Numbered from the stretch's first letter, positions 12,739-32,934 are shown. The stretch is DNA of 64,000 bases from Rhodospirillales bacterium (GCA_947447625.1 CANFKS010000002.1:52392-116391); one strand, 5' to 3'. Translations and numbers: made by a program. The notes: generated by a model from the sequence alone, not told the origin.

Positions 12739-13830
12739 TCACCACATACGGCGAAGCCAGGCCTCGATCGAGGCTGGCCGCCAGACCGGGCCGAGTTCGA
12801 GCCAGGACAAGCTGTTTTGAGAATTGGTGAAGCTGGTTTTGTAGCGGGCTTCGCCGGCAAGGAAATCATACCCGTTCATGCCCTCGGCCATGTGAGCCTC
12901 GATGGCAAGATGATGGCAGGTCAGGCCGGGCTTACGACGAGGATCAGCGTGAGGGTAGGCGAAGCCGCTCTGATAGGCCAGGACCCAGCCGCGCCACAGG
13001 AAATTGTATAGGTAGCCGATGGTTTGGCCGCCGGCGCTGAAATGCAGGAGTTCCGCCTCCCTTCGAGGAATGGCGCGGGCGATGAGTGCGCGGTGGAAAC
13101 GATAAAACTCCGGGACAGCGAAAGCGCCTTGCCGGTTACGTCGTCGCCAGGACTCTTGGTGCAGGAGAACGAGGCCGTCGAGGCATGCAAGAGCCTCGGG
13201 CACATCCGCGGCGCGGCGCATGACGATGGGGCCATTGGTCTGGTAGCGCCGCAGGGAGCGGCGAATCTGCTGGCGGGTGTTGGCGCTAAGGCTGGCGGCG
13301 TGATCACTGGCGGTGGCGCGCAGGCGGTTGAAGTCAACACACGGTGAGGGGCGGTCCGGGTGCAATTCGAGCGTCCCTGGGATCATGCGCGCGGCGGTAG
13401 CGATGCCACCGCGCACGCCGCTCAGCACCAGGCGGCGGCCAAGGCGGCCGAGGCCGGTTTTTAACAGGCCACGGATCACATCCGGGGCGGCGGTGGCGGC
13501 GACAAGGGGACCGTTATGTTCAACGAACAAAGAATCCCATGCGGGCAGGCCGCTTTCGCCAAGCCAGAGCGTGTCACCACTCCAGCCCGCGATACGGTTG
13601 CAGAGGGCGAGGGCCATCGTTTCGCCACCGAGGGTGGCTTCGATCAGTATGGGATCGGGGAAGCGGGCGGCAACCTCGCAGCCGACCCAGGTCCAACTCT
13701 GGAAAAATGACGCATCTGCCTCGGCTTCGAGCGCACGCCAGCGCTCGCCGAGTTTTTCGAAATCGCCTGGCACGGACAACGTGAACTGCGGCATCCGCGC
13801 AACAAAGGCGGACACTGGGCTGCATGTCAA
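12739..13830 (-). CDS. CelD/BcsL-type GNAT acyltransferase
   Basis: SFFQSWTWVGCEVAARFP...QQIRRSLRRYQ...AELLHFSAGGQTIGYLYNFLWRGWVLAYQSGF; GNAT_6 family. Confidence 0.85.
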   Translation of the reverse strand: MTCSPVSAFVARMPQFTLSVPGDFEKLGERWRALEAEADASFFQSWTWVGCEVAARFPDPILIEATLGGETMALALCNRIAGWSGDTLWLGESGLPAWDSLFVEHNGPLVAATAAPDVIRGLLKTGLGRLGRRLVLSGVRGGIATAARMIPGTLELHPDRPSPCVDFNRLRATASDHAASLSANTRQQIRRSLRRYQTNGPIVMRRAADVPEALACLDGLVLLHQESWRRRNRQGAFAVPEFYRFHRALIARAIPRREAELLHFSAGGQTIGYLYNFLWRGWVLAYQSGFAYPHADPRRKPGLTCHHLAIEAHMAEGMNGYDFLAGEARYKTSFTNSQNSLSWLELGPVWRPASIEAWLRRMW

Positions 13831-13904
13831 ACGATGCTCTTGGGTGGCTTCCCCTGTGGTGCCGCATAGGGCAGCTTGCCAAGATAATACCGGATCGGAA
13901 CATC

Positions 13905-14702
13905 ATGTCCCTGGGCTCTCTGCCGACCGCCTTGCTGTTGCCTCCGGTGAACCTGGTGCCGCTTGCTCTGGCAGGAATGGTGCTGGCACGCTTTCGGCCA
14001 CGCCTCGGGCAGGCGGTGAGTGTGGGCGCGCTGCTGGGTCTCCTGCTCCTCAGTCTTCCGGTCGTCAGTGCGCTGCTCCTGCAGTCGCTGCAGGCGCATA
14101 TCCCGCGCGGGATGGCGGACGCGATGCGCCAACGTGGCGACATGACGGATCAGGAGAGCATCAGGCGGTTGCCGGGGGCGATCGTGGTTTTGAGCGCAGA
14201 TGCGGCGTATGGCGGCGGGGGGGGCATTCTGCCGCAGCTCGGGCTTGGGATGATGACGCTGGAACGGCTGCAGGCGGGGACGATATTGGCGCGCCGGGTT
14301 TCGCTGCCGGTGCTGCTGGCGGGCGGGCCGGCGGGGCCAGGGCAGCCGCCGCTGGCCGTGTTGATGGCCGAGGCGATGCAGCAGAATTTCAGCGTGACCG
14401 CATCATGGATCGAGACCCAATCGAGCGATACCTGGGAAAATGCCGAATTCAGCGCTGGGATGCTGAAGGCCTCAGGGATCGGCAGTGTCTACCTGGTGAC
14501 CAATGCCTGGCACATGCCGCGCAGCCTGATCGCGTTCCGGCATTTCGGGATCGAGGCGATCCCGGTTCCCTCGCGTTTCAGCGCCGCGCCCAGGCTTGAC
14601 GCCGAGGCCTTCACGCCCCGGGTGTCGGCGTGGCTGAACAGCTATTTCGCGATCCATGAATGGGTTGGGGTGGCGTGGTATTGGTATCGTGGTCGGTTCT
14701 GA
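13905..14702 (+). CDS. YdcF/SanA-like (DUF218) protein
   Basis: N-terminal hydrophobic helices; AIVVLSADAAYGGGG...SSDTWENAEFSA...VYLVTNAWHMPRSLIAFRHFGI. Confidence 0.88.
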   Translation: MSLGSLPTALLLPPVNLVPLALAGMVLARFRPRLGQAVSVGALLGLLLLSLPVVSALLLQSLQAHIPRGMADAMRQRGDMTDQESIRRLPGAIVVLSADAAYGGGGGILPQLGLGMMTLERLQAGTILARRVSLPVLLAGGPAGPGQPPLAVLMAEAMQQNFSVTASWIETQSSDTWENAEFSAGMLKASGIGSVYLVTNAWHMPRSLIAFRHFGIEAIPVPSRFSAAPRLDAEAFTPRVSAWLNSYFAIHEWVGVAWYWYRGRF

Positions 14703-15732
14703 CATCGTCGAGGCCGAGACCTTCGACGAGGCTGCCGCCCTCGCGGATGGGCCGTTGGCAGCAGGGGCGGGGCGGAGTTTTTTTCTAGCGCCGTGGTGGT
14801 GGCGGACGATGGAGGCGGGCGGGCTTGCGGCCGGCGCTCGGGTGCGATTTTTGGCCTATCGTGAGGCCGGTACGGCCGTTTGTCTGTTGGCGTTGGGTGA
14901 GGCAGGGGGACGTATCGAAGGACTGACAGGACCTTATACATGCCTCTATCAGCCCTTGTTTGCTGGGACGCTCGATGCTGCCGCGATCAGACGGGCGGCG
15001 GCGGCGCTGGGCGGATGGTTGAGGCGGTATGCAGTGATCCGCTTCGATGCGCTGGATGCTGAGGCAGCGTGGCTTGACCCGTTCCTGGCGGGGATGCAGC
15101 ACGGAGGGCTGCGGGCGTTGCGGTTCGATCACTTCGGCAACTGGCACGAGCCGGTCGCAGGACGGGACTGGGAAGGGTATTTGAGGGGGCGGTCGGGGTC
15201 ATTGCGCGAGATGATACGACGCAAGACACGGCGCAATGCGGGGGTCAATTTGCGGATTGTGACGGGCGGGGACGCGCTGGAGGGAGCGATCACCGGGTAT
15301 GAGGACGTCTATGCGCGGAGTTGGAAGGTGCCGGAGCCGTTCCCACTGTTCAACGGGCGGATGATGCGCGAGGCGGCGGGGGCAGGGGCGTTACGGCTGG
15401 GGCTGTTGGAAAGCGGCGGGGAGTTGATCGCGGCGCAGATCTGGATCGTGGCCAACAGCAGCGCCCTGCTGGTGAAACTCGCGCATGACGAGGCGTTCAA
15501 GCCATTGTCGCCGGGGACGGTGCTGACGGCACGGATGATCCGCCATCTGATCGACGAGGAACAGGTGCGCGAGTTGGATTTCGGGAGGGGGGATGATCCA
15601 TACAAGGCGTTGTGGACGACGGCGCGGCGGCAGCGGATTGGGGTGGTGTTGGCAAATCCGTGGCAGCCGGCGGGGGCGATGGCGATGATGCGCCACGTGG
15701 CGGGGCGGTTGCGCCGGAGGTTGGGGCAGTGA
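14656..15732 (+). CDS. CelD/FemAB-type GNAT acyltransferase
   Basis: SGSLREMIRRKTRRN...ARSWKVPEPFPLFNGRMMREAAGAGALRLGLLESGGELIAAQIWIVANSSALLVKLAHDEAFKPLSPGTVL; GTG at 14689 is an alternative start. Confidence 0.85.
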   Translation: MNGLGWRGIGIVVGSDIVEAETFDEAAALADGPLAAGAGRSFFLAPWWWRTMEAGGLAAGARVRFLAYREAGTAVCLLALGEAGGRIEGLTGPYTCLYQPLFAGTLDAAAIRRAAAALGGWLRRYAVIRFDALDAEAAWLDPFLAGMQHGGLRALRFDHFGNWHEPVAGRDWEGYLRGRSGSLREMIRRKTRRNAGVNLRIVTGGDALEGAITGYEDVYARSWKVPEPFPLFNGRMMREAAGAGALRLGLLESGGELIAAQIWIVANSSALLVKLAHDEAFKPLSPGTVLTARMIRHLIDEEQVRELDFGRGDDPYKALWTTARRQRIGVVLANPWQPAGAMAMMRHVAGRLRRRLGQ

Positions 15733-15780: not shown

Positions 15781-15850
15781 TGGCAGCCTGATGATTTTTG
15801 GCGGAATCACCAAAAATCATCAGGCGATCGAACAAAGAGTTAGAGCGGCA
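15781..15850 (-). repeat. Dispersed palindromic repeat, copy 1
   Basis: Reverse complement gctctaactctttgttcgatcgcctgatgatttttggtgattccgccaaaaatcatcagg; perfect 15-bp arms 15787-15801/15810-15824; contains stop of the adjacent gene. Confidence 0.9.
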
Positions 15851-17699
15851 GGGCGACCAGTTCGGAGTAGAGGAAGGTAACCTGCTCGTGCGGCAAGTCA
15901 GGGCCGCAATAGAGGCGTGGAGTCGGGTTGGGGCGTTGGATGCCGATGGTTGTGTTGTCGGGCAGCAGATGTTCGGGGATACGCATGCCGCAGACGCCGT
16001 GGCGCAGCAGAAGATGCCCGCCGATGGCGCGCTGCCAGCGCAGGAACAGGGCGAGGTTGCTGAAGCCGAAGACGCGGGCGCTGGGCAGGCCCTTGATCAC
16101 CGAGGGGCGCCAGATCACGACGCACCAGTCATCCCCGCGCCCGACCGCGAAACTGTGCAGCCCGGGCAGGCCAACATGGTCGCGCCAGAGCCGGCCTGCC
16201 TCGCCAACCATTTCGCCGGGCGATGTCATCACGCCGAGGCCCATGGCGAAGGCGGGGAGCGGGAGGTTGAACACCACGCGCTCGTTCGAGGGCAGGTCAC
16301 GGAAGCGGAAGAGGCGCAGCATTTTGGCAACGGCCGGCGTCGGGGTGAAATTGGTGAAGCGGAACTGCTTTTGCGACAGGCAAGCGGATAGCAGGTCCAT
16401 CGAGCGGGCCCGGTGGGCGTGTTCAACGACCAGGCTCGTGAGATTGCAGAAATCAACGGGTTCGCCGTTGATCGTTTGGCGCGAATAGATGGCGCCAAGC
16501 GTGCCGACGAGTTCGCCGTCCGCGAGCAGTTGAAAGCCATGGTTGGGTGGGTTGGCCAGCCAGTCATGCCGAAGGGCGCCGATCCAGGCCGGGACCGAAA
16601 TGTCGGCGTTGAGATTGGCGTGCCAGTAGGCGGCAATGCGGGGAAGGTCAGCCGCGGTGATGGGCTGGACCGACAGGGCCGGTTTGCGGCGGGGCGCAAC
16701 GGCGGCGGGCGCGCGCGGGGCAGCGGCGCTCATTTCGGCCCGCAGGTGGAGCGGGTCGATCGGGGTGGCGTTGAATTCAGTGATGAACCAGGCGAGGAAG
16801 CGGTCAAGCGTGGCGAGGAAGGCAGCCTGGTCGGCTTCGGTGCGGACATAGGGCGTATGGCCAGGGGCGACGGAGGGGGAGTGCAGGCAGAGCATGAAGT
16901 CCCGCTGGCCGGCAGCGGCGTTGAAGCGGACGAGGCGGCGCATCTCCTCGAAGGTGAAACCCTCCGGAGTCAATCCGATGCGTTCGAGCATACCGAGGCG
17001 AGACAGGATGCCGGGAATGCGCAGGCGCCGGGCACCGGACGACAGAGCGGCGGCGGCGAGGCGCTCCAGGCCGGGCCGGGCCAGCCACCCGATCCGGCCG
17101 CCGCTGTTGGGGATGCTGAGGACGCTGCCGTTCGAACCCTCCCAGCGCGCGGCGTTGTCCCGGCGCGAGAAATCCGGGCCATGCTGGGCGGAGTAGTCGA
17201 ACGGCGGACGCGGGCTGATGTCGATCTCGTAGCCCAGCGCTTCCAGCGTGGCGAAGCTATGCGGACCGATACCGTAGCGGCCGGCCTTGTAGATGGCCGG
17301 GCGGGTGCCGAAGGCAGCCTCGATCTGGTCGGTGAGTGTGCTGATCTTGGCAGCTTCGAGCGCCTGCGGGAGATTGCCGGGGAACGAGTTTTCCGGCCGG
17401 ACTTCCTCGGTGAATGGCGCAGTGACCCAGGGGTGGAGATGCGTACCGATCAGGGCGCGGCCAGACCCCAGGATGGGGCGCAGGGCACCGATCGAGATCG
17501 GATCGGTCGCGATCGGGGTGGTGACGGCATAGACGGGACGGACGCCGTGACGGTCGAAGACCGCTTGCAGGTCCCCGATCCTGAGCATGTGGCCGACGCC
17601 GGTGGCGCTGCGGTCAAACGGCGCGGACCAGTCAAACTCCTCCTCCGTGTCGACAACGGCCATGATCCGCGGCGGGAGAAAGCGGGAAACGGCGACCAC
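15840..17699 (-). CDS. Polysaccharide deacetylase (WalW-like) fused to C-terminal GNAT acyltransferase domain
   Basis: N-term MAVVDTEEEFDW...IGTHLHPW...CLHSPSVAPG; Pro/Ala linker SAAAPRAPAAVAPRRKPA; C-term LSVQPITAADLPRIAAYWHANLNADI...LLADGELVGTLGAIYS...LTSLVVEHAHRARSMDLLSACL. Confidence 0.85.
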   Translation of the reverse strand: MVAVSRFLPPRIMAVVDTEEEFDWSAPFDRSATGVGHMLRIGDLQAVFDRHGVRPVYAVTTPIATDPISIGALRPILGSGRALIGTHLHPWVTAPFTEEVRPENSFPGNLPQALEAAKISTLTDQIEAAFGTRPAIYKAGRYGIGPHSFATLEALGYEIDISPRPPFDYSAQHGPDFSRRDNAARWEGSNGSVLSIPNSGGRIGWLARPGLERLAAAALSSGARRLRIPGILSRLGMLERIGLTPEGFTFEEMRRLVRFNAAAGQRDFMLCLHSPSVAPGHTPYVRTEADQAAFLATLDRFLAWFITEFNATPIDPLHLRAEMSAAAPRAPAAVAPRRKPALSVQPITAADLPRIAAYWHANLNADISVPAWIGALRHDWLANPPNHGFQLLADGELVGTLGAIYSRQTINGEPVDFCNLTSLVVEHAHRARSMDLLSACLSQKQFRFTNFTPTPAVAKMLRLFRFRDLPSNERVVFNLPLPAFAMGLGVMTSPGEMVGEAGRLWRDHVGLPGLHSFAVGRGDDWCVVIWRPSVIKGLPSARVFGFSNLALFLRWQRAIGGHLLLRHGVCGMRIPEHLLPDNTTIGIQRPNPTPRLYCGPDLPHEQVTFLYSELVALPL

Positions 17700-17702
17700 T
17701 CC

Positions 17703-17975
17703 CTAGGATTGCGTCGCTTGCCTTGATGCGATGAAGGCGGCGATGGCCGAGAGGGTGCCGAGATTATCGATCGTCATGTCTTGGGCCTCCAGGGCAAGGT
17801 CATAGGCGTTGTCGATGAGCATCACGAATTCAATCACACCGGCGCTGTCGAGAATGCCGGTGTCTGGGATGACGTCCTGTTCGGTGATGCTGCTGGCATC
17901 GGTGCCGAAATCATCTGCGAGTTGCTGGAGCAACCGTCGCAGCCTTGTCATGATGGCGTTTCGATCGTCAGTCAT
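17703..17975 (-). CDS. Acyl carrier protein
   Basis: 90 aa; IPDTGILDSAGVIEFVMLIDNAYDL with phosphopantetheine-type D-S motif. Confidence 0.88.
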   Translation of the reverse strand: MTDDRNAIMTRLRRLLQQLADDFGTDASSITEQDVIPDTGILDSAGVIEFVMLIDNAYDLALEAQDMTIDNLGTLSAIAAFIASRQATQS

Positions 17976-17996
17976 GCTGCGTCCCTCGCGCGTTGT

Positions 17997-19103
17997 TCAA
18001 TAGCTACCGGGTTGTGTTAGCGTCTTCAACAGCCGAACAGCATCGAAACCGGACAGCAGGCGGTGATCGTAGGTCATGCCGAGGATGGCACTTTCCCCGT
18101 CGGGAGCGGATGCGGAGTGCGCGATCATGACGCCGGTGTTGGGGGCGAGAACCGGCTGGTGCCGGCGGACGCCCCATCGGGCCATGCTGGTGAAACCGAT
18201 GGTGGCGCCGCGCATTTCGGCGGAGGTCAAGTTGTGGCCCATGGCGCGGCGTTGCAGGTAGAACAGTTTATGGACGAAATCGGAGGCAGCCAAGGTGTCG
18301 GCGGCATTGACGACGCAGAAATAAAGCACCTCACCGGCCTGCACGGTGAAGCCGAGATTGGCCTGCTTGTAGCGGACGAGCTGGGCGGTTTCGCCTTCGA
18401 GGACGGTAGCGTTGGCGCCGGCGTTGTGAGCGAATTGGGCGAGGCGATGGGCCATCAGGGAGAGCAACGGGCTGAACAGCAGGCGGCGCTCGCGCATGAA
18501 GGCGGCGGCGGCGGCTTCCCAGGGCCGCGGGTCGTATTCGAGTTCGAGGTAGGCCGCGGCGGCGTGATCGCGCTGCCAGGTGACGGTGGCGAGCATGCCG
18601 CGAGCAGTCGAGGACAGCGGGCTCGTTTCGGCTGGGGCAGGCAGCTCGATGGAGGACCGCCGAGGAGTGGGGGCGGATGATGCGGCCGGGGGATGGAGGG
18701 CGAGGTAGGCCTCGACATCGGCTGCCGTCAGACGAGCGGCGGTGCGGGGGACGGCGCCGGCGGACAGGGCGTGGCGGCGGAGGAGCAGGCGGGCCTTCGC
18801 GGTCATGCCGCTGTCGGCCACCATGGTGACGGGGCCTGCACTGGCTTGCGGGGGAGCCTCGTCGGGCGTGGCGCCAAGCCACAGGGCGACGGCGCCGACG
18901 GCGATGTCCTGCCCCTGTTCGCAGGCAACGGCGAGGACATAGCCGTCGGACTCGGCCTCCACATCGACGGTGGCTTTTTCGGTTTCGAGCTCCATCAGCA
19001 GGTCTCCGGCGGCGACGGCATCACCAACCTGGACGCAGATGCGGGCGACTTTCACCACGTCGTCGTTGTTGTTTACCCTTGGGGCGTGAACGGGCTGTGC
19101 CAT
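17997..19103 (-). CDS. 2-oxo acid dehydrogenase E2 (lipoyl + peripheral-subunit-binding + acyltransferase domains)
   Basis: Lipoyl LMELETEKATVDVEAESDGYV; PSBD-like AKARLLLRRHALSAGAVPRTAARLTAADVEAYL; C-term LGMTYDHRLLSGFDAVRLL. Confidence 0.9.
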   Translation of the reverse strand: MAQPVHAPRVNNNDDVVKVARICVQVGDAVAAGDLLMELETEKATVDVEAESDGYVLAVACEQGQDIAVGAVALWLGATPDEAPPQASAGPVTMVADSGMTAKARLLLRRHALSAGAVPRTAARLTAADVEAYLALHPPAASSAPTPRRSSIELPAPAETSPLSSTARGMLATVTWQRDHAAAAYLELEYDPRPWEAAAAAFMRERRLLFSPLLSLMAHRLAQFAHNAGANATVLEGETAQLVRYKQANLGFTVQAGEVLYFCVVNAADTLAASDFVHKLFYLQRRAMGHNLTSAEMRGATIGFTSMARWGVRRHQPVLAPNTGVMIAHSASAPDGESAILGMTYDHRLLSGFDAVRLLKTLTQPGSY

Positions 19104-19123
19104 ATCGAATGCGATGCGTCGGA

Positions 19124-21229
19124 TCAGGCCGCAATCGCATCAAGCACGGCGGCGACGACGCTGTCAGCGCCAGGCAGCACCGCTGATTCGAGCGAACGGG
19201 CGGAAGGAATGGGGACCGGTGGGGCGCCGACGCGGCGGATGGTGCCGCGGTAGCCGGATTCGGCGAGACAGGCGATCAGCTCGGCGCCGACGCCATAGCC
19301 GCTATGGGTTTCCTCGGCAATGACAATGGCGTCATAGCCAAAGAGTGCCTCGATCAGCGCATGGCGCGGCAGGGGGGCAAGGAGGGCAAGGACGAGGATG
19401 TCGAGGTCGAGTTCCTCCTCCTGAGCCAGGCGCTCGCCGGCGGCTTCGACGAAGGGGACCATGCCGCCATAGGTGACGATGGCGGCGTCGGGAGTGGCGC
19501 TCCGTCGGCATAGGGTGGGGAAAGCTGCGCCGCCGGCATCCTTGGCGTGGGCGGGCAGCGGGCGATAGCGGCCCGGGTCTTCGGTGGCACCGTAGACAAG
19601 CTTGTGTTCGAGGAACAGCGTCGGATAGGGCCAGTGCTGCACGGCATTGCGCAGAAGGGCGGCGTTATCATGACGCTGGCTGCCGTAGAGCACGGTCAGC
19701 CCAGGGATGGCGGCGAAGATATTCTCCGGGCTTTGGCTATGAGTGGGCCCGTAGCCGCGGCGGCCACCGGCCGGCGTGCGGATCACCATGGGGACGGACA
19801 GTTCGGGAAAGACTCCGGCAAATTTGACGGCGTGGTTGTAGATCTGGTCCGCGCAAAGGGTCAGGAAATCAGCGAACATGATTTCAACGATCGGGCGGTA
19901 GCCGGCGAGCGCAAGGCCGATGGCGGCGCCGGTGAGAGCGGCTTCGCTGATGGGCGTGGAGACCACGCGCCCGGCGTAGCGTTGCGACAACCCAGCAGTG
20001 ACTTTGAAGGCGCCGCCGTAGGGATCATGCAGGTCCTCCCCCATCACGATGGTGCGCGGGTCATCATTCAGGAGTTCGCCGATGGCGGCGTTGAGTGCGG
20101 TGCGGACGCTGCGGGCGGTGGTGGCGGGGGGGGCGGGGGGGGCGGGGGCGATGTCAGAAAGGCACGTGGGGGGGGGGAACATCGAGGGGCGGAACGCGCG
20201 GTCCGTCGCTTCGGACGAGGCTGCAGCAGTCGCGGCAACCTGGGCTATCAGATCGGCGACGGAGGTGTCGATGGCAGCGCGCCGTTCAGAATCGAGACTG
20301 TCACCGAGGCGGGCGACCGGATCCCGGGCGCGGATGGTGGCGATTTCGGACTCTGTCCGCAGGTCATCGCCTTTGCTGTGCGGGCCGAGGCGGAAGGTGT
20401 CGATCACCAGAAAGCCAGGCCGCCTTGTGGCGCGGACTTCATCCACCGCTTCGGCCGCGATTCGCCAGAGCGCGGGATCGGCATCCGACACGCGGCGCGT
20501 GGTGAGGCCGAAGGCGGCGCCGCGCGCGAGCATGTCGCCGCCGATCGTGCCTGCGGTTTCGGTGGTTTGCGCGATGCCGTTGTGCTCGACAACGAACAGC
20601 ACCGGGGCGGGCCATACCGAGGCGAGGTTCATGCTCTCATAAAGCAGGCCCTCGCCGAGCGTGCCGTCCCCGATCATGACAGCCACGATTCCTTCCGAGC
20701 CGTCCATCTCCCGCGCGCGGGCGAGCCCGACGGCAATGCCGGTCATGCCGGCCTGCACGCCATTGCTGTGGAAATGGCGGAAAGCCATGTGCTGGCTGCC
20801 GCCGCGCCCCCCGCAGACCCCCGCTTCGCGACCCATCACCTCAGCGACCAGACCGACGAAATCGCCCGCATAGGTCAGGAAATGGCCGTGATTGCGGTGA
20901 TTCGAAAGCACCGCGTCATCGGCATGCCGCAGCGCCCGCACCACCGCCATTTGGCAGAATTCCTGGCCAAGACAGGTATGGGTGGTCCCGGAGAGTTGTC
21001 CCTTGGAGAACAGATCAAGCAGAAGCGTTTCGGTGCCGCGGATAGCTTGGGCATAGGCATACAAGGCGGCCGGGTCAGCCGGAATGATCGGTCTGCCGTC
21101 AGAGCCGCGGGCGATCCCTGGCACCCCGATAGGGTCTGACACCGTCACCGGTGATTGCATGTTCATATCGTGCGTCTGCTCCACGCTGCGTCTGAGTGTA
21201 TCCACCGGTTGACCTTTATTTTCCGTCAA
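19124..21229 (-). CDS. Fused TPP-dependent 2-oxo acid dehydrogenase/transketolase-like E1 alpha-beta
   Basis: E1alpha: GTTHTCLGQE, GGRGGSQHM, GDGTLGEGLLYESMNLASVW; linker with PPP/PAPPAPP; E1beta: VMGEDLHDPYGGAFKVT, TPISEAALTGAAIGLALAGYRPIVEIMFADF. TTG start overlaps upstream stop; ATG at 21166 alternative. Confidence 0.92.
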   Translation of the reverse strand: MTENKGQPVDTLRRSVEQTHDMNMQSPVTVSDPIGVPGIARGSDGRPIIPADPAALYAYAQAIRGTETLLLDLFSKGQLSGTTHTCLGQEFCQMAVVRALRHADDAVLSNHRNHGHFLTYAGDFVGLVAEVMGREAGVCGGRGGSQHMAFRHFHSNGVQAGMTGIAVGLARAREMDGSEGIVAVMIGDGTLGEGLLYESMNLASVWPAPVLFVVEHNGIAQTTETAGTIGGDMLARGAAFGLTTRRVSDADPALWRIAAEAVDEVRATRRPGFLVIDTFRLGPHSKGDDLRTESEIATIRARDPVARLGDSLDSERRAAIDTSVADLIAQVAATAAASSEATDRAFRPSMFPPPTCLSDIAPAPPAPPATTARSVRTALNAAIGELLNDDPRTIVMGEDLHDPYGGAFKVTAGLSQRYAGRVVSTPISEAALTGAAIGLALAGYRPIVEIMFADFLTLCADQIYNHAVKFAGVFPELSVPMVIRTPAGGRRGYGPTHSQSPENIFAAIPGLTVLYGSQRHDNAALLRNAVQHWPYPTLFLEHKLVYGATEDPGRYRPLPAHAKDAGGAAFPTLCRRSATPDAAIVTYGGMVPFVEAAGERLAQEEELDLDILVLALLAPLPRHALIEALFGYDAIVIAEETHSGYGVGAELIACLAESGYRGTIRRVGAPPVPIPSARSLESAVLPGADSVVAAVLDAIAA

Positions 21230-22266
21230 CGATCAAGGCCGGTTGATGGCGATCCGCCGGGCCGACGGATACGAGCCGGATGGACCGGAGACATCGCCCC
21301 GCTTTTGTTTCGACCGAACAGGAACAGTTTGAAGGCTGCACGCAACAGCCACGGATGCTGTCGCGCAGGGCATTCACCACGCACGCCACGCCAGCCATCC
21401 CACAGGCCGGCAAGGATGGCATCAATGCCGGCCTGATAGCCTCCCATGCGGTTGATCTGATATCTCTGACGCAGAATATGCCACCATATAGATTTTAACA
21501 GGCACAAACCACGAGTGTACTTGACCCAAAAAAGAATTTCATTTCTTGCAACGTAGTAATAAACATGCGGCTTAATAGATTGCGGATTGTCTTTCGTGGG
21601 TTTTTTTTTGTGATAAATAAACGCATCCAAGGCTAAATAATTCCTAAATCCAGCATATATGCTTCGAACCGAATAGTCCGAATCTTCGAAATATGCGAAA
21701 AACCTCTCGTCTAAACCGCCGATTTTTTCCCAAAGCGCACGCCGAACCAGCAAAGCCGCGCCGTAGAGCAGAACCCGTTGCGGGCGTTCAGCAAGCCAGC
21801 TGCGGGCCAGGGAGATGGCATCGGTCTGCTCCGTTAACGGCGCCGCGAAATCGAAATGACCGCAGATAGTGTGGATATCGGGAGCATCGGTCCATTCGCG
21901 CTGGACCGGACTGACCAAGCCGATATCCGGCTCAGTTTCGGCCGTTTCGACCAGTTTGGCGAGGGTATCCGGCGCAGCCAGAGCGTCGTTGTTCAGCAGC
22001 CAGACGTAATCCGCCCCGGCTGCGAACGCGTGCGCCATGCCGATGTTGTTGCCGCCGGTGTAACCAGTATTGGTGCTCAGCGCGATGACTTCGACGTTCG
22101 GTGCGCGATCGCGAAGCGCGGCGACCGAGTCGCCCGTTGAGCCGTTGTCTACAACCAGGATTTGATAGTTCAGATAGGAATGCCCAAGCACCGAATCGAT
22201 GCAACGGGCCGTTTCCTCGAGAGTGTTCCAATTTAGTACAATGACATAAACGGATGGCTGTGGCAC
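21226..22266 (-). CDS. Glycosyltransferase family 2
   Basis: VYVIVLNWNTLEETARCIDSVLGHSYLNYQILVVDNGSTGDS...WLLNNDA...YGAALLVRRALWEKIGGLDERFFAYFEDSDYSVR. Confidence 0.94.
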   Translation of the reverse strand: MPQPSVYVIVLNWNTLEETARCIDSVLGHSYLNYQILVVDNGSTGDSVAALRDRAPNVEVIALSTNTGYTGGNNIGMAHAFAAGADYVWLLNNDALAAPDTLAKLVETAETEPDIGLVSPVQREWTDAPDIHTICGHFDFAAPLTEQTDAISLARSWLAERPQRVLLYGAALLVRRALWEKIGGLDERFFAYFEDSDYSVRSIYAGFRNYLALDAFIYHKKKPTKDNPQSIKPHVYYYVARNEILFWVKYTRGLCLLKSIWWHILRQRYQINRMGGYQAGIDAILAGLWDGWRGVRGECPARQHPWLLRAAFKLFLFGRNKSGAMSPVHPARIRRPGGSPSTGLDR

Positions 22267-23838: not shown

Positions 23839-24915
23839 TCACCCCCTGAGCCGGCGCGCCTCTTCGAGGATTTCGAAAAAACGGGCCCGCAACGGGCCGA
23901 ATGCAACGTCGCTTTGTTGGGCCCGGCACAGAGCCCTGGCGGCATAGTCAGCGTGGCACACCGGATCATCCCATAGCCGGCCGACCGCCCCAGCCCAGAG
24001 CGACGGGTCGTCCTCGATGTGCAGGAGCATGCCGCCGCTCCCGACCGACTCCGGCAGGCCGCCGCGATCACTGGCCACGACGGGGATGCCGTTGAGTTGT
24101 GCCTCCGTCACCACGCGGCCCCATGTTTCATCCCAGGCGCTGGGAACCAGCATGAGCCGAGCCATGCCATAGAGGCGCTTGGGATCGCGTTGAGCCGGAA
24201 TGATTTCGATGTTCGGCAGCGCGTTGGCCATTTCGATGATGGCCGCATCTTCGGGGGATGGACGCAAACCCTCCCATGTCCGCACCATCGTGAACGGAAT
24301 ATCGGGGCGCAAGCGCGCGATCGCCACCGTGATCGCCGCACCCTTGCGCTGGTTGAGCCCGACATGGAGCACGCGCGAGCGGGGCCCGGACGCACGATAG
24401 CGGTCGGGGCGAACAATGGGATGCAGCACGTCGAACGTTGCAGCCAGCGCCGCGCCCTGGAAGCGCGCGTTGAACCGCGAATTGGCCAGCAGCACGCAGC
24501 GCCGGGTCCAATCTCCGCCGATCGTGTCGGCATAGGGTGAATGTGCGCTATGGCTGTAGAGGACCACGCCGCAGCCACGGTCAAGCGCGATTGCCACCAT
24601 GTCGAGGCGCCAGGACTGCACGACGACGACCTCGGGTCCGTAGCGGTCGATTACATCGGCCAGCACGTCAGCGGAATGCCAGCTCCGCAGCACGGGATAG
24701 CCAAGCCCGCCATCTTCCGCCCATCGGCTGCCGAGGCCCAACTTCAGTTTTAAACGAGCCCTGAACCCGACCCAGCCACGCCCGATCAAACTCGCCAGCA
24801 CCATCGGTTGGTGGCCAGCATCGCGCAAGGCGAGGCTGAGTTCATGGGTGTTGATCTCGGTCCCACCGGTATTTTCAGGAATATGGGGGTAATCGGAGGC
24901 GAACAGAACGCGCAC
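23839..24915 (-). CDS. Glycosyltransferase family 4
   Basis: PENTGGTEINTHELSLALRDAGH...LMLVPSAWDETWGRVVTEAQLNGIPVVASDRGGLPESVG. Confidence 0.92.
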   Translation of the reverse strand: MRVLFASDYPHIPENTGGTEINTHELSLALRDAGHQPMVLASLIGRGWVGFRARLKLKLGLGSRWAEDGGLGYPVLRSWHSADVLADVIDRYGPEVVVVQSWRLDMVAIALDRGCGVVLYSHSAHSPYADTIGGDWTRRCVLLANSRFNARFQGAALAATFDVLHPIVRPDRYRASGPRSRVLHVGLNQRKGAAITVAIARLRPDIPFTMVRTWEGLRPSPEDAAIIEMANALPNIEIIPAQRDPKRLYGMARLMLVPSAWDETWGRVVTEAQLNGIPVVASDRGGLPESVGSGGMLLHIEDDPSLWAGAVGRLWDDPVCHADYAARALCRAQQSDVAFGPLRARFFEILEEARRLRG

Positions 24916-24923
24916 CGGCAGAC

Positions 24924-25847
24924 CTATCGCCCCAGCAGGCGCTTGAGCCAGCCAGGCAGCAGCATCGAGATCGACCGGCGCAGCCGGTTGAACACCGTGC
25001 GATCAAGGGGCTGAAAATCACGCCACGGGGTCAATCGCAGGGCGTGCCAATAGGCATCACGCCGCGGGTGCCGGCAGAAGTAGCTCCAGGGTTTCGAGGC
25101 TCCGTTGAAATGCAGGATGCGGGCTTGCCGGCGCACGCGCTCGACCTCAGCGGCCGTGAGCCGGAGGTCGTGATAGGGAAAATAGAACGGGGTGATGACG
25201 TTCCAGATAGGGTCGAGCGGCATACGGTCATGATGCAGCACGGCGTTGAGTGCATCCTGGTCGGGATCGATCAGCCGGGCGTGATTGGCCTGGATGAACG
25301 CCATCAACCGGTCGAACGCATTGGTTTTGCGCCATCGGGCAAGGTCGATCAGCAGCACGCCGGAGTTGAAATACCCTGCGGTTTCAGGGATGGCGAACAT
25401 CGGACAACGGGTGGAGCCGGGGATCGACACGGCGCCGAGGGTGTGATCTCGCAATGGCATCTCCCACAAGGGATCAAGGCTCTCAACGATAACCATGTCG
25501 CTGTCGAGATAAAGTACCCGATCGACATCGTCCCCAAAGAAGTCCGACACCCAAAGCCGGGTGAAGATGTCGACGGTATAGTGTGCCCGGGTCGGCAGTA
25601 CGAGGCTTGCGTCCGGAACAAAACGCCGGAAGGCCACTTGCATGTGCGTGTAGCGCCCCAAAGCATCCCGCGCGATGCGATCGTGCTCGGCCGGATCGCC
25701 GTCCTGCATCACGACAACCACATTGTATCCGAAATGGGAATGCTGTTCGGCGATCGAAGTCAGAACAACGAAGAGGTGCTGCAGATAGGATGCGTTGCAG
25801 CAGAGCAGCAGGTGGATCAGCGGCCGCGAAGACACGTCTTCATCCAC
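24924..25847 (-). CDS. Glycosyltransferase family 8
   Basis: RVLYLDSDMVIVESLDPLWEM (DxD), YFNSGVLLIDLARWRK, PDQDALNAVLHHD, ILHFNGASKPW. Confidence 0.93.
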   Translation of the reverse strand: MDEDVSSRPLIHLLLCCNASYLQHLFVVLTSIAEQHSHFGYNVVVVMQDGDPAEHDRIARDALGRYTHMQVAFRRFVPDASLVLPTRAHYTVDIFTRLWVSDFFGDDVDRVLYLDSDMVIVESLDPLWEMPLRDHTLGAVSIPGSTRCPMFAIPETAGYFNSGVLLIDLARWRKTNAFDRLMAFIQANHARLIDPDQDALNAVLHHDRMPLDPIWNVITPFYFPYHDLRLTAAEVERVRRQARILHFNGASKPWSYFCRHPRRDAYWHALRLTPWRDFQPLDRTVFNRLRRSISMLLPGWLKRLLGR

Positions 25848-27381
25848 CGGAACCGGACCCGGCGCGGCTGAGCCGGCTCACCTCATGGTTCAATGTGTAT
25901 TGGACTTGCAGGAAATTCGTGATCAGCGCCTTGATCTTCCGCTCCTCGTCCAGACGGATGGCGGAGCGATCGACCTGCACTCCGACCGAGAGCAGGATGC
26001 TGCGCGAGCCACCTCCAAGGATGCTCTGGCGGGCCAGCAGGACCCGCCCACCGAGTCCGCCAGGCGCCGGATTTCCGCCCGTCCACAGGGCAGTCGCGGT
26101 CATGTACGAACCGCTCGGCGTGCCATTGGCGATAAGGTATGACCAGCCCGGACCGACAGCGATACGCCCGCCGGTCGTCTCTTCGGCACGGCTCTCGTTG
26201 GTCAACCGGGAGCGCGCATGGCCGATCGCCGACCAGGTGCTCCGCGCGGAAAAAACCTGCGCCGAGACGAGCAGCACGCCCTGCGGACAGGTGAAGCGCA
26301 CCTGTTCGCTGCCGGCCACCAGTCCCGGCTCCGCAACGCCCTCCCGGCATCCGATCGGGGTGATCCATGTGAAATGCTCAGGAACCGTCGCGGCAAGACC
26401 TGCTCGATCGATGAGGCAGGCAACCAGCGGTCCGATCCCTGAGATCACAACGACGAGCAAAGCCACCGGCAGCAATCGACCCGCCGCAGGGACCGGCACG
26501 GCACTTGGCACTGCGACGCGCCCGACCCCATCCTGGCGAAACGGCAGCCCGACCGCGATCAGCAACAGGGTCACCGCCGAGAAGAAGACCCAGCCATAGA
26601 TGATGTGGTCAGCCGCCGCCGCCTCGGCGCTGCCCAGCACATATCCGAGCACAATGATCCCCAAGGCCCGAAACCAGTTGGCGATGATGGGCACGACGAT
26701 CGAGGCCAGGATAAAAAAAGCGCGCCGCCACAGGCTGCGATACATCAGGCAGGCATACAGGACCCCAAATGCAATCGAGGCAATCAGGAAGCGCAGACCG
26801 GCGCAGGCTTCCGCGATAAAGAACCGGCCGCCCGGCACGTCAATCAGATAGCCGTCGGTCTCGTGCGGAATATCGAGCACATTCAGCCCAAATTCAGTGA
26901 AGACCGCCGTCCAATACTGCAGCAACGGGGTGATGAAGGCCCCGAACGGGACCAGGAAATACAGATACAGCAACGGCGCCGCCAACGCGGCCGCCATCCG
27001 CCAGCCCAGCACCGAAAGAAACAGCACCTCGACCAAGCTGATCGCCATCAGTTGCCGCCCCTCCATAATCCCGAGCCGCTCCGCCACAAACCAGGCGATA
27101 CCGATAGGGAGCGCCGCGAGCCCGGCCCATCGCAGCGGAACCACCGGCTCGGCCAGGATCCCGGCGCGCCGCTCCCAGGCCAGATAGAGCACGATCGGCA
27201 GGACAAAGAGGCAATGACTGTAAGCGGTGCTGTCCATCCACACCCGGTAAGCCGCCGCCACCTCGGTAGAGAACGCATAGCCCAGGACCGCAAGCCCAGC
27301 TGCCAGCACGAGCAAGGGGCCGTGCAGGGTGCGCAACAGGTCCTGTAATCCGGGCGGTGGTGTTTCGACGGTTGTGTTCAT
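25840..27381 (-). CDS. xrtA: Exosortase A with C-terminal EpsI domain
   Basis: Multi-TM; catalytic Cys in FIAEACAGLRFLIAS, Arg in VPIIANWFRALGIIVLGY, His in ADHIIYGWVFF; EpsI-like C-terminus. Start MNTTVETPPP at 27381. Confidence 0.95.
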   Translation of the reverse strand: MNTTVETPPPGLQDLLRTLHGPLLVLAAGLAVLGYAFSTEVAAAYRVWMDSTAYSHCLFVLPIVLYLAWERRAGILAEPVVPLRWAGLAALPIGIAWFVAERLGIMEGRQLMAISLVEVLFLSVLGWRMAAALAAPLLYLYFLVPFGAFITPLLQYWTAVFTEFGLNVLDIPHETDGYLIDVPGGRFFIAEACAGLRFLIASIAFGVLYACLMYRSLWRRAFFILASIVVPIIANWFRALGIIVLGYVLGSAEAAAADHIIYGWVFFSAVTLLLIAVGLPFRQDGVGRVAVPSAVPVPAAGRLLPVALLVVVISGIGPLVACLIDRAGLAATVPEHFTWITPIGCREGVAEPGLVAGSEQVRFTCPQGVLLVSAQVFSARSTWSAIGHARSRLTNESRAEETTGGRIAVGPGWSYLIANGTPSGSYMTATALWTGGNPAPGGLGGRVLLARQSILGGGSRSILLSVGVQVDRSAIRLDEERKIKALITNFLQVQYTLNHEVSRLSRAGSGSGG

Positions 27382-27388
27382 GTCGGCG

Positions 27389-28432
27389 TCACCCCAGCCC
27401 GCGCACGATCGGCGGGCCAATCAGGTTGGCAAGCGACAGCGGCAGCCGCTTCCAGGCCGCAATAAAGAGGCGATATTTCGGGTTCAACGGGTTGATGTCC
27501 GGAATCGCCGCGCCGGGCGCCAACCGGAATCGGTAATGCAGTGGAACCGGGACAAAACCCCAGTTCTTTTTGAACGAAAAGGCGCCCGTCCCGAGCTTGC
27601 TGCGCCCGAAGTCGAACAAGGTATAGCCCCGCGCCGCCGCGCGGCGCATGACCTCCCAATACATGAAGTCATTGCCATAGCGCTCACGTGCAACCGCCCG
27701 GCCGCCGCCGTAATAGGGCAGCACTTCATCACGGAAGTAGAAATTCAGTACTGAGGCGATTGCCTGCTCACCATCCAGGACCGTCACGATGTCGCATGCG
27801 TCGCCGAAAACCTCGCGCAGGATCTGGAAATAGCGGCGCGCGAACACCGGGGTGCCGAGATTGCGCACGCTTTCGGCGTATATGGCATGCAGCCGCGCGG
27901 CATCCGTATCGATCACCGAACACAGCCCGCGATCAATACCTTTACGCACCATCGCTCTCTGCTTGCGCGGAATGCCCTTCAAATTCGTCTCGTCGCTCGC
28001 AGCAATCGGCTTTCGGAACGTGACATACAAATCGGGCCGCGCCGGCCATTTCGCCTCGTCAAGCCACGCGATCGGAAGCCGGGAGCGGAACTCAAGCACC
28101 GGCACGCCGCGTGCCTTCATCAGCCCCTCGGCATGCGCAGCCAGCGCCTGGCCCGCTTCGGCATCAGCCGCCAACGGTCCGCCATAAACGCAAAATGGCA
28201 ACGATATCATGTTGTTGCCGAAAAATACTGTCTTGACGTGGCCAAGCGGCAACACGCCGACGATAGCGCCGTCACGCTCCGCGTAGACGTAGTGCGTCCG
28301 ATGTCCGAAGGCGCGCGCAATCACAATGCGCCACGCCGCGAGATGGAAGAACGAGCCTTCCGGATGGGCCCGCACGAACCCATCCCAGGCCGGCGCCGCA
28401 GCGTCGTCGAGTTCCCGGCAAATTACCGCCAC
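27389..28432 (-). CDS. FemAB-like GNAT, XrtA/PEP-CTERM system-associated
   Basis: VLPLGHVKTVFFGNNMISLPFCVYGGPLA...LFDFGRSKLGTGAFSFKKNWGF; between xrtA and deacetylase. Start GTG 28432 chosen near upstream stop. Confidence 0.92.
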   Translation of the reverse strand: MAVICRELDDAAAPAWDGFVRAHPEGSFFHLAAWRIVIARAFGHRTHYVYAERDGAIVGVLPLGHVKTVFFGNNMISLPFCVYGGPLAADAEAGQALAAHAEGLMKARGVPVLEFRSRLPIAWLDEAKWPARPDLYVTFRKPIAASDETNLKGIPRKQRAMVRKGIDRGLCSVIDTDAARLHAIYAESVRNLGTPVFARRYFQILREVFGDACDIVTVLDGEQAIASVLNFYFRDEVLPYYGGGRAVARERYGNDFMYWEVMRRAAARGYTLFDFGRSKLGTGAFSFKKNWGFVPVPLHYRFRLAPGAAIPDINPLNPKYRLFIAAWKRLPLSLANLIGPPIVRGLG

Positions 28433-28436
28433 GTCG

Positions 28437-29324
28437 TCAATCCTCCGCGTTCCAGCAGCGCTCGAATACGCGATCCATCCGATCCCATTGGAAATCATGG
28501 AGCAGTTGGTCAAGGCGGCCCGACATCGCACCGAGGTTCACGTAGTGACGGAACCGGGCCAAGGCCGATGCGCCGGCCATGCGGGGCTGCGCAGGATCCA
28601 CCTCCCAAGGATGGAAGTAGAAAACCGCCGGTTTACGCTCGCCGCGGTTGAGGTGCCGGACGCCGGTACGGAACAGGCGATACGGCAGGAGGCGGAAATA
28701 CCCACCGCCCGCACAGGGCAGATTGCGCGAGCCGATGCGAACCGTCGTCATCGGTATCTCCCACATCGCGGACTCGACGACGCGATAGGCAAAGCGCGGC
28801 CCACTCGGATCGCCGTAGAGATCATGCAGGATCGGGTAGATGGAGGAACTGTATCGGTATCCAGCCTCCTCCAGCAACGCATGGGCCCACGGCGTGCGCG
28901 GGCCCATCGAAAACGTCGGCGCGCGATACCCGGTGACGGCGACGCCGCCGATGTCCTCCAGGAGTTCCCGCGCACGGCGGACATCGGCACGGAAACCACC
29001 TGGCGTGAGCGAATAGATCGGCTGATGACCGAACCCGTGGCTCGCCAGTTCATGCCCCCCCGCAACAATCCGACGCACCATCGATGGATAACGCTTGGCA
29101 ATCCAGCCAAGCGTAAAAAATGTCCCATGCACACCATGGGCTTCGAACTGCATCAGGATGCGCTCGACATTCGCCTCGACCCGGCAATCGAAACCCTCCC
29201 ATTGAGCCGGCGAGACAACGTTTGCAAAGGCCTGGACCTGGAAATAATCCTCTACGTCAACGCTCATGGCGTTCACGATCTTCGCGGGGTCGTCCAGGAC
29301 ACGTGAGGGGGCTAAATCTGCCAT
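28437..29324 (-). CDS. XrtA-system polysaccharide deacetylase
   Basis: NAMSVDVEDYFQVQAF...GTFFTLGWIAKRYP...HELASHGFGHQPIYSLTP...FYFHPWEVDP; PuuE/HpPgdA-like with DUF3473-type end. Confidence 0.95.
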   Translation of the reverse strand: MADLAPSRVLDDPAKIVNAMSVDVEDYFQVQAFANVVSPAQWEGFDCRVEANVERILMQFEAHGVHGTFFTLGWIAKRYPSMVRRIVAGGHELASHGFGHQPIYSLTPGGFRADVRRARELLEDIGGVAVTGYRAPTFSMGPRTPWAHALLEEAGYRYSSSIYPILHDLYGDPSGPRFAYRVVESAMWEIPMTTVRIGSRNLPCAGGGYFRLLPYRLFRTGVRHLNRGERKPAVFYFHPWEVDPAQPRMAGASALARFRHYVNLGAMSGRLDQLLHDFQWDRMDRVFERCWNAED

Positions 29325-30361
29325 TGCCGCGCCGCGTTGAAGCCGCTGAACATGTCCATCAAGCGCTGGGACCCCTGTTCGAGCCGCGCCACCGCGTCCT
29401 CGAGCGCTTCGATACGCCGTTCCATCGCGGCAGAGGTCGGGGCATACTCCCCCTGGAAGCCAAAGCCGCCAGTGCCTTGGAATGGCTCTCCACGCTGGGT
29501 CGCCGTATCGCTCCCGGGGCCGGATCCGCCCCCTCCAGCACCACCCTCAAGATCGCGCTGCAACTCGGCCGCCGTGTTGTCGACCATCGGGCCGGTGATC
29601 ATGGTGCTTTCCTCGAGCGAGCCGTAGAGCAGGACACGTGAGCACAACCGATTGATCCGGCGCGGTATTCCGCCCGTATGGCGATGCATGGCACCGAACG
29701 CGCCGTCAGTGAAGGCCGGGTTGTTATGCCACCCCACCGCGTTCAACCGATATTCGATGTAGGCCCGCGTCTCCTCCTCCGAAAGCGGCCCCAGATGATA
29801 CGAGGCCAGGACGCGCTGGCGCAGCTGGTCGAGGTCCGGACTGGCCAGCGTGCGGCGGAACTGCGGCTGGCCCAGCAGAATCGTCTGCAATACCGAATGA
29901 CCGCCCTCGATTGTGACATTGGAGAGCATGCGCAACTCCTCCAGCGCCTGCAGCGGCAGGTTCTGCGCCTCATCCACCACCAGCAGACAACGCCGCCCCC
30001 CGGCGGCATAGGCCCGCAGCATGTCCTGGAAATCGCGCAGCAGGGTCGCCTTGTCGAGGCCCGAGGCGTTGATGCCGAAGGCAGTCATCGTCAGTCGGAA
30101 CAGATCCTCGCCCGACACCTGCGTCGTATTAATCCGAGCCAGCAGGTAGGTGTCCCGATCAAGTTCCGACCACAAGCGCTCCACCAGCGTCGTCTTACCT
30201 GCGCCAACCTCGCCGGTAACAATGATGAAACCTTCAGCTTGCGAAAGCCCATAGATCAAATGGGCAATCGCCCGGCTATGCCCCTTAGAGCCGAAAAAAA
30301 ACCGGCTGTCCGGCGTCAGTTGGAACGGCATCGCCGCGAAATCGTAGAATGTCTCGTACAT
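29312..30361 (-). CDS. XrtA-associated ExeA-like AAA ATPase
   Basis: MYETFYDFAAMPFQLTPDSRFFFGSKGHSRAIAHLIYGLSQAEGFIIVTGEVGAGKTTLVE...LLVVDEAQNL. Confidence 0.95.
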   Translation of the reverse strand: MYETFYDFAAMPFQLTPDSRFFFGSKGHSRAIAHLIYGLSQAEGFIIVTGEVGAGKTTLVERLWSELDRDTYLLARINTTQVSGEDLFRLTMTAFGINASGLDKATLLRDFQDMLRAYAAGGRRCLLVVDEAQNLPLQALEELRMLSNVTIEGGHSVLQTILLGQPQFRRTLASPDLDQLRQRVLASYHLGPLSEEETRAYIEYRLNAVGWHNNPAFTDGAFGAMHRHTGGIPRRINRLCSRVLLYGSLEESTMITGPMVDNTAAELQRDLEGGAGGGGSGPGSDTATQRGEPFQGTGGFGFQGEYAPTSAAMERRIEALEDAVARLEQGSQRLMDMFSGFNAARQWQI

Positions 30362-30366
30362 GTCTA

Positions 30367-32004
30367 TCAGAACGCCTTGCGCAACCCGACCACCACGAGA
30401 TCCCGCACTGGCGCAAATCCAAAGGTCTGCCCGGTCGAAACCATGTGCGAAATCAGAATATTGATCGAGAGTGTCTCAGACAGAAGATATTGAGCGGAAA
30501 CGCTGACCGCGGTGGTCGTCGTGTCGGTCTTGAGCAGCGGAGCGCTGCGGACACCATATTGAAGCGATGCCGACGTCGTGAACACCTCCGAAATCAGATG
30601 CTTCCAGATCGCCGCGGTGTTCATGCTGGTGTTGGAGCCAAATCCGCTCCCACCACCGCCGGAAAGCAGGACATATTCCGAGTTCGACCAGTCCAGCGTG
30701 ATGACGTCGCGGTCGAGGAGATAGACGCCCGACACTGAAGCAACCGTGCTACGGTAGACGCCTGGCTGCTGGTTGAGCAGGTTCCCCAATTGCACCGGCG
30801 CGCCGGACGCGCGATCAACTGCCACCCCGGCAGGGCCGCTGACGGTGCCGGCGAGCGCATTCTGGAGGTTTTGCAAATCGGTGCCGACGCCCTGACTGTA
30901 GCGGGCGAGCAGCCGGATACGCGCCGAGGGCGCATAGGTGCCGTCAAACGAAAAACTGCTCGCGCCTTGCTGACGGCCATATTTGGCGGTGATCGCGCTG
31001 TCTGGATTCGGCGTCAGCACCACACCGGCCGACCAGGTCAACCCGTCGATCTTCTTTGGTCCACCAGGCCCATATATGATCGTTTCATGCCCGAGGCTGC
31101 CCGTGGCAGTGACCGTCCGGGTCAGTGCGTAGCCGGCCGCCGCGGTCACCGTTTCGCTGTGTGCCCCTCGATAGACCCCACTCCCGTCATACTGCGCCGC
31201 CATTGCCGCCAGGCTGCCCTTGATGCGCCCGAAGTCAGGGCCGGTGGCAATCGACACCGCCTCGTGTTGCGAGGAGAAATTGCCGGTCGTACCGTCGGTC
31301 AACGTCAAGGTCGATTGTGGGGCGAGCGGCGAGCGGCTGGTCTGCGATATCGTATAGCCGGCGTTCAGGATGGCGAAATCGCCGAAGCGCTTTTGCAGAT
31401 AGGGGGCCGCGCTGAAATGACTTGTCTGCACTTCATTCACCCGGCCCGAACTGCCCGTGCTCGGCACCGCATAGCCGAGCAAAGGCTGGGTGGCGGCATA
31501 GCCTCGCAGGTCTGTGAACAGCAGGTCCGGCACCAAGGTCGCAGCCAGGTTCGCGTTGAGATCATGGGTGAATCCGGATTCCGCGCGATGCAGCGCATAG
31601 AGGTTGTAGGATGGGCTATACGCCAGCGCGCCCTTGAGCCGCTGCGCATCGAGAGTCCCCGCAAAAATCGGCGTTATGCGCGTGATAAAGTCGCGACCAC
31701 GGCCACGCGGCAGCAGCACCGCACTGTCGTAGGTTTCGCTGAGTTCGATGGACGGGGAAAAATTCCACCGCCGGTCCGACAGTGTCTTCGGGCCGGATTC
31801 CATCGCGTTCTCAAACTGTTTTCGCAGATCGCCGACCCGAACATCGGCGCCGTAGGCCGGCAACACGCCCTGCGCCGCGGCGCGTGTAAAGACCGTGATC
31901 GCCGAGACAGCCGCCACGGAGGCGAGCAGTGCCGCGCACCGCCGCTCCTGCCATCCATGCCGGCCGCGGCTAAGAATAGGTACCAAAATAGTGGTACGCA
32001 CCAA
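30367..32004 (-). CDS. XrtA/PEP-CTERM system-associated outer-membrane beta-barrel protein (TIGR03016-like)
   Basis: Signal region then WNFSPSIELSETYDSAVLLPRGRGRDFITRITPIFAGTLDAQRLKGALAYSPSYNLY; syntenic position. Confidence 0.85.
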   Translation of the reverse strand: MVRTTILVPILSRGRHGWQERRCAALLASVAAVSAITVFTRAAAQGVLPAYGADVRVGDLRKQFENAMESGPKTLSDRRWNFSPSIELSETYDSAVLLPRGRGRDFITRITPIFAGTLDAQRLKGALAYSPSYNLYALHRAESGFTHDLNANLAATLVPDLLFTDLRGYAATQPLLGYAVPSTGSSGRVNEVQTSHFSAAPYLQKRFGDFAILNAGYTISQTSRSPLAPQSTLTLTDGTTGNFSSQHEAVSIATGPDFGRIKGSLAAMAAQYDGSGVYRGAHSETVTAAAGYALTRTVTATGSLGHETIIYGPGGPKKIDGLTWSAGVVLTPNPDSAITAKYGRQQGASSFSFDGTYAPSARIRLLARYSQGVGTDLQNLQNALAGTVSGPAGVAVDRASGAPVQLGNLLNQQPGVYRSTVASVSGVYLLDRDVITLDWSNSEYVLLSGGGGSGFGSNTSMNTAAIWKHLISEVFTTSASLQYGVRSAPLLKTDTTTTAVSVSAQYLLSETLSINILISHMVSTGQTFGFAPVRDLVVVGLRKAF

Positions 32005-32932: not shown

Positions 32933-32934
32933 GT

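Follow-up and report, generated by a model that had tools for sequence, protein, structure and literature searches.

Formation of glycolyl-acyl carrier protein (glycolyl-ACP) from a ketose phosphate was reportedly demonstrated in vitro for NapB/NapD and QncN/QncL in the original PNAS work of 2012. By homology to QncN/QncL/QncM, the same reaction has been assigned to SclQ1-4 of scleric acid biosynthesis (PMC6335953), and glycolyl-ACP formation has likewise been assigned to DinS/DinT/DinU and NapB/NapD in work on dnacin (PMC7570522). NapB/NapC/NapD, QncN/QncM/QncL and SclQ1-4 all encode together a thiamin diphosphate (ThDP)-dependent E1, a lipoyl-bearing E2 and a small dedicated ACP. The same trio is present in a 64,000-nucleotide stretch of a Rhodospirillales bacterium genome (GCA_947447625.1 CANFKS010000002.1:52392-116391, hereafter the window, with positions counted from its first letter), within an exopolysaccharide (EPS) locus of the exosortase XrtA type, and its sequences suggest a Nap/Qnc-type module for acyl loading. 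Unlike the Nap, Qnc and Scl systems, the window E1 has its alpha and beta parts fused (as in RenH, described below) and belongs to a sister clade of its own; window-type trios are partnered by N-acyltransferases and deacetylases in a polysaccharide or stand-alone context, and near the window trio no nonribosomal peptide synthetase (NRPS) gene was identified, glycosyltransferase, XrtA, deacetylase and GNAT genes being found there instead. Neither E1/E2/ACP sets in exosortase/EPS loci nor glycolyl-ACP in such loci were found described in the open-licence papers searched, Haft 2006 included. We put at about an even chance the reading of the cassette as an EPS/amino-sugar offshoot of the ACP-partnered two-component transketolases, whose glycolyl-type acyl-ACP would be used for N-acylation.

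The trio belongs to an operon of five minus-strand genes in the XrtA polysaccharide locus, all of which were recovered as open reading frames where the initial annotation had placed them. Their order is glycosyltransferase, fused E1, E2, ACP and deacetylase-GNAT fusion, with gaps of -4, 20, 21 and 3 nucleotides, the first of which had been given as -3. The operon opens with a family 2 glycosyltransferase (GT2; 21226-22266, PF00535, E 3.4e-21) whose best NCBIfam match, the rhamnosyltransferase model TIGR01556, is under its cut-off; it stands outside the conserved cassette, its homologs being unlinked to E1 in most related loci. The ThDP-dependent E1 (19124-21229) combines E1_dh (PF00676), Transket_pyr (PF02779) and Transketolase_C (PF02780) in a single chain of 701 residues. 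E2 (17997-19103) has one lipoyl domain (PF00364 Biotin_lipoyl, with the lysine in ETEKA) and an acyltransferase core (PF00198 2-oxoacid_dh), and the stand-alone ACP (17703-17975, PF00550 PP-binding over cut-off) carries its phosphopantetheine serine in the motif LDSAG, of which D-S is conserved in the ACP alignment. The deacetylase-GNAT fusion (15840-17699) was recognized from its folds by AlphaFold and Foldseek. These domains agree with the initial annotation in every gene except E2, in which the lipoyl and catalytic parts were borne out and the proposed peripheral subunit-binding domain was not, there being no E3_binding match in Pfam and at most a weak resemblance.

A scan of genome contigs revealed 33 related loci (L019-L051) with E1s 48-72% identical, in Acetobacteraceae, Methylomonas, Rhodocyclaceae and other Burkholderiales, Nitrosomonas, Accumulibacter, Hoeflea, Nitratireductor, Rhizobium and Acidobacteria. 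E1, E2 and ACP are contiguous in 29 of the 33, with ACP directly after E2; two of the others (L020 and L043) are contig ends, and in L025 and L049 the ACP lies about 9.5 kb off on the same stretch. Because this contiguity extends over several classes and two phyla, the association is not a matter of chance. Within the window's own order, a first look at 397 genomes, with few candidates scored in each, found the trio in the window genome only, which was therefore probably the recipient of a horizontal transfer. XrtA scored over its cut-off in 23 of the 33 genomes carrying related loci, with no XrtA match for the Hoeflea, Nitratireductor and Rhizobium members, and in Methylomonas sp. LW13 the cassette is megabases away from the XrtA genes. 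An exclusive tie of the trio to XrtA is ruled out by these four cases, so that the system is not bound to the exosortase setting in which it was first noticed. The Methylomonas unit (L032 and other loci) runs E1-E2-ACP-GNAT-deacetylase near rsgA, with the final two genes overlapping, and these two genes stay with the trio where no other EPS gene is near. This unit represents the cassette in its minimal form; the window has the same set with deacetylase and GNAT fused.

Chance placement of an ordinary catabolic pyruvate or acetoin dehydrogenase in an EPS locus, a case that the initial annotation had itself raised, is very improbable. E1 and E2 do have the domain make-up of pyruvate dehydrogenase (PDH) and acetoin dehydrogenase, and their best NCBIfam matches are PDH E1 alpha/beta and E2 models, but both cut-offs are missed by far (172.1 of 393.85 bits for the E1 alpha model TIGR03182; 78.3 of 722 bits for the E2 model PRK11854). 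In contrast to those complexes, the window trio has a dedicated ACP, as do 29 of the 33 loci, lacks a local E3 and the Asp of the E2 motif HxxxDG, has other loops at the ThDP site and falls in a separate clade. The genome has its own PDH and 2-oxoglutarate dehydrogenase (OGDH) E2 genes, which make three with the window E2 and which were named from their position beside lpd and the earlier annotation of the suc genes. On the missed cut-offs, the separate clade, the dedicated ACP and the motifs described next, we rejected this candidate.

A tree of 64 E1s places the 23 EPS-type rows together (Shimodaira-Hasegawa-like approximate likelihood ratio test, SH-aLRT, 99), with 13 NRPS-type rows, RenH included, as their sister group (support 98); the resulting 36-row clade is split from all other E1s with an SH-aLRT of 100. 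The tree is without NapB and QncN, and kinship to them runs via RenH and published homology tables. Seven motifs (HSKGDDxR, GG[SA]QH, [ST][NT]GVQ, PYGGAFK, GYGPTHSQ, HTC[LI]GQE and NHRxHGH) are present in almost every E1 of the EPS and NRPS types and absent from the 46 others compared. The HRxHGH portion resembles the THRGHGH of many other compared E1s, and some E1s bearing the latter may, we presume, act on acetoin, a ketol. RenH, together with Streptomyces plasmids, was reached by a plasmid tblastn search with an actinobacterial relative. On the renieramycin plasmid of Candidatus Endohaliclona renieramycinifaciens, RenH/RenI likewise consist of a fused E1 alpha-beta followed by E2, and RenH has all the tested E1 motifs; it differs in serving a tetrahydroisoquinoline natural-product pathway, with identities of 43% in the alpha part and 36% in the beta part. 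In Streptomyces sp. NBC_01136, ACP, E1 alpha, E1 beta and E2 are consecutive near an NRPS condensation-domain gene, the same gene set as SclQ1-4. By way of RenH/RenI and NBC_01136, the window has its E1 and E2 motifs in common with Nap, Qnc and Scl, which is in keeping with the Nap/Qnc-like module first proposed.

The E2s of the two branches are only about 25% identical, and their likeness rests on motifs. They start with P-x-[LVI]-NNND or near variants (PRVNNNDD in the window, PRLSSNDD in RenI), and most have lost the Asp of HxxxDG with retention of the His. In the window this site reads YDHRLLSG, in which Asp is replaced by Ser, comparable to FDHRVLTG of RenI; among the E2 relatives the position is mostly S, N, T or H, once G, and Asp in L040, L041 and L046.

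The donor may nevertheless be a 2-oxo acid. In this alternative the module and the N-acylation are the same, E1 acts on pyruvate, hydroxypyruvate, 2-oxobutyrate or a branched 2-oxo acid, and what is loaded on the ACP is acetyl, propionyl, hydroxypyruvate-derived glycolyl or a branched acyl group. In its favour, fold and Pfam families match 2-oxo acid dehydrogenases, the EPS-type and NRPS-type E1s form separate clades (support 99 and 98), and no residue proving ketose binding was identified; yet all seven motifs that separate the family are common to the NRPS-type branch, and plain acetylation would already be served by acetyl-CoA. We regard a 2-oxo acid donor as unlikely, with roughly one chance in four.

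The last gene of the operon and its counterparts point to N-acylation as the use of the acyl-ACP. The deacetylase-GNAT protein gave no Pfam or NCBIfam match at default threshold, and a PDB sequence search was also empty. The AlphaFold2 model of its N-terminal half (16710-17699; predicted local distance difference test, pLDDT, 84; predicted template modelling score, pTM, 0.87) has a CE4/NodB-type deacetylase-like fold whose best Foldseek matches come mostly from polysaccharide deacetylases (E as low as 4e-6), and the motifs DTEEE (VDTEEEF) and HLH (HLHPW) were read by eye in this half, which has no Pfam match. The C-terminal half (15840-16709; pLDDT mostly above 90) has a GNAT N-acyltransferase fold and matches NMT, GNAT and Eis structures with E down to 4e-9. 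The Foldseek assignment covers the window protein only; in Methylomonas, where the deacetylase is a separate adjoining gene, a GNAT-half homolog (L022) scores over the PF00583 Acetyltransf_1 cut-off. Comparing profiles from small alignments yielded no usable signal for the deacetylase-like or the GNAT-like proteins.

An N-acyltransferase-type gene accompanies the trio in 30 of the 33 loci, in line with the deacetylase and/or N-acyltransferase partnership first suggested for the window. A GNAT-half homolog is near the trio in 23 loci, and the partners comprise GNAT_C, another GNAT, Antibiotic_NAT and, in Acidobacteria, a GNAT-like protein. In L047 an Antibiotic_NAT gene (aminoglycoside 3-N-acetyltransferase family) directly follows the ACP, and in Hoeflea and Nitratireductor a divergently encoded GNAT-like gene, just below the Acetyltransf_9 cut-off, is 3.5 kb away. 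Four Acidobacterial loci have, after the ACP, one NodB-like gene (FDDPDG, YHN, THxG) and one GNAT-like gene, both assigned by eye and neither with a family match. The three loci with no such partner are the short contigs L043 and L051, and L046, which has a hexapeptide-repeat protein. N-acylation is proposed mainly because N-acyltransferases of different kinds recur near the ACP. Beta-proteobacterial loci usually run E1-E2-ACP-hydr2_PEP-hydr1_PEP-GNAT; many also have a second ACP, with ligase_PEP_1 and dCO2ase_PEP1 nearby. The hydr2_PEP/hydr1_PEP genes between ACP and GNAT encode alpha/beta hydrolases (L021-L050, e.g. L023:11370-13144), and neither the window nor the loci of Methylomonas and Acidobacteria showed any.

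The acyl-ACP could also go elsewhere, to a polysaccharide hydroxyl, a lipid or a small signal molecule; in that case the deacetylase-GNAT protein would be a neighbour with its own job. This fits the remote fold match that is all the GNAT half offers, the hydrolases placed between ACP and GNAT in beta-proteobacterial loci, and a title cited in PMC8776678 that links XrtA systems to N-acyl amino acid synthases. The recurrence of N-acyltransferase-type partners from different families, Antibiotic_NAT included, near the ACP in those 30 loci and the Methylomonas units with deacetylase and GNAT but no nearby EPS genes stand against it, and we think such a destination rather improbable.

For the reading as an N-acylating branch of the two-component transketolases, the observed gene content, conservation, E1 clade, E2 motifs and folds of the last enzyme form the basis from which we infer the donor, the acyl group, the acceptor and all activities. 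E1 would use ThDP to withdraw a C2 ketol unit, probably from a ketose phosphate, and attach it in thioester linkage to the E2 lipoyl arm; E2 would pass the acyl group, most likely glycolyl, to the dedicated ACP. In the cytoplasm, the modelled CE4-fold domain would strip N-acetyl from an amino sugar or from an intermediate that contains a sugar, and the modelled GNAT domain would then transfer the ACP-borne acyl group to the freed amine. A non-acetyl group is favoured because re-adding acetyl after deacetylation would be futile. The protein has no evident strongly hydrophobic stretch (maximal 19-residue mean 1.47), and a cytoplasmic step that uses acyl-ACP therefore fits.

With 2-oxo acid and ketose donors alike, lipoamide has its disulfide reduced when it takes over the C2 unit from the ThDP enamine. 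Because the lipoyl group is reduced on acylation, its reoxidation is still needed with a ketose donor, and would probably be carried out by housekeeping lipoamide dehydrogenase, one of two Lpd. No E3 is local to the trio; the initial annotation had held that this kind of transfer proceeds without oxidation and hence without E3, an argument that fails. Since reoxidation is needed either way and the genome has two full lpd genes, one at about 49 kb in the window, as noted before, and one next to the PDH E2 on contig C67, the missing local E3 does not discriminate between donors, and we dropped it as evidence for ketose chemistry.

Several points weigh against the N-acylation reading as a whole. 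Since the EPS-type E1s are only a sister group of the NRPS-type ones, donor or acyl group may have shifted; RenH and the Paenibacillus E1 are on long branches, and kinship to characterised enzymes depends on RenH, whose function is assigned by cluster, and on published homology tables. One position of the deacetylase motif is Asp in the window and His in Methylomonas, so that deacetylase activity may vary. In beta-proteobacterial loci the cassette parts are interspersed with or flanked by hydr1/hydr2 and a second ACP, the hydrolase insertion perhaps serving acyl editing. Published N-glycolyl EPS from cassette-bearing organisms was not found in open-licence papers.

XrtA EPS loci also have a different ACP-based source of acyl groups, the ligase_PEP_1/dCO2ase_PEP1/ACP set (TIGR03098, TIGR03099), which differs in using adenylation and pyridoxal phosphate-dependent decarboxylation, not ThDP/lipoyl chemistry. 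It is found alongside the trio in Rhodocyclaceae, among others, and is absent from the window, as the initial annotation had observed for its acyl-CoA ligase and decarboxylase; no ligase_PEP_1 over cut-off and no hydr1_PEP was found in the genome. The host locus (23839-34575, minus strand) encodes GT4, GT8, XrtA, FemAB, XrtA deacetylase, ATPase, outer-membrane protein, tyrosine kinase and chain-length determinant, with the XrtA, FemAB, deacetylase, ATPase, kinase and chain-length genes at 25.8-34.6 kb. XrtA reaches 272.6 bits against a cut-off of 208 (TIGR03109); TIGR03019, TIGR03006, TIGR03015, TIGR03016 and TIGR03007 are also over cut-off, TIGR03018 is under its own, and GT4 and GT8 were called by Pfam. 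The exosortase frame (25840-27420) has 526 residues, about twice the XrtA model, which matches at 38-295, leaving a long C-terminal extension. Three FemAB/GNAT-type (PF13480) proteins lie in or near the locus (12739-13830, minus; 14656-15732, plus; 27389-28531, minus), and the first two flank a DUF218/ElyC-like gene (13824-14702).

Related genes were also met outside EPS loci. In the order to which L090 belongs (Microbispora and kin; L090, L099-L123), 106 of 349 genomes have a close relative of the NRPS-type E1 alpha, often in two copies, which suggests a large, mostly uncharted set of NRPS clusters using C2 units of the glycolyl-ACP type. Plasmid p-YT9A of Paenibacillus polymyxa (L126:5509-9882) encodes ACP, E1 alpha and E1 beta of the ACP-partnered kind in a ketosynthase/thioester-reductase island, a methyltransferase gene separating E2 from the E1s. 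In Actinomadura macra (L052:7774-9986), an 83-residue stand-alone lipoyl-domain frame lies directly upstream of a fused E1 alpha-beta that is outside the ACP-partnered clade.

More specifically, and tentatively, with about one chance in three, the cassette would serve dedicated N-glycolylation of surface or lipid-linked amino sugars, leading from ketose phosphate through glycolyl-ACP to an N-acetyl/N-glycolyl swap that needs neither glycolyl-CoA nor an oxygenase, and would have spread horizontally across several classes, including Accumulibacter and other wastewater bacteria. If the proposal is correct, a chemistry not known until now outside antibiotic-type assembly lines would also decorate bacterial polysaccharides, and cells would gain a direct route from pentose-phosphate sugars to an N-acyl group. 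It would give a function to gene sets that are likely annotated now as pyruvate dehydrogenase in such loci, and would predict a specific EPS substituent in Accumulibacter, Rhodocyclus, Dechloromonas, Paucibacter and Methylomonas. Several of these are important in sludge flocs and granules, which are held together by a poorly defined glue.

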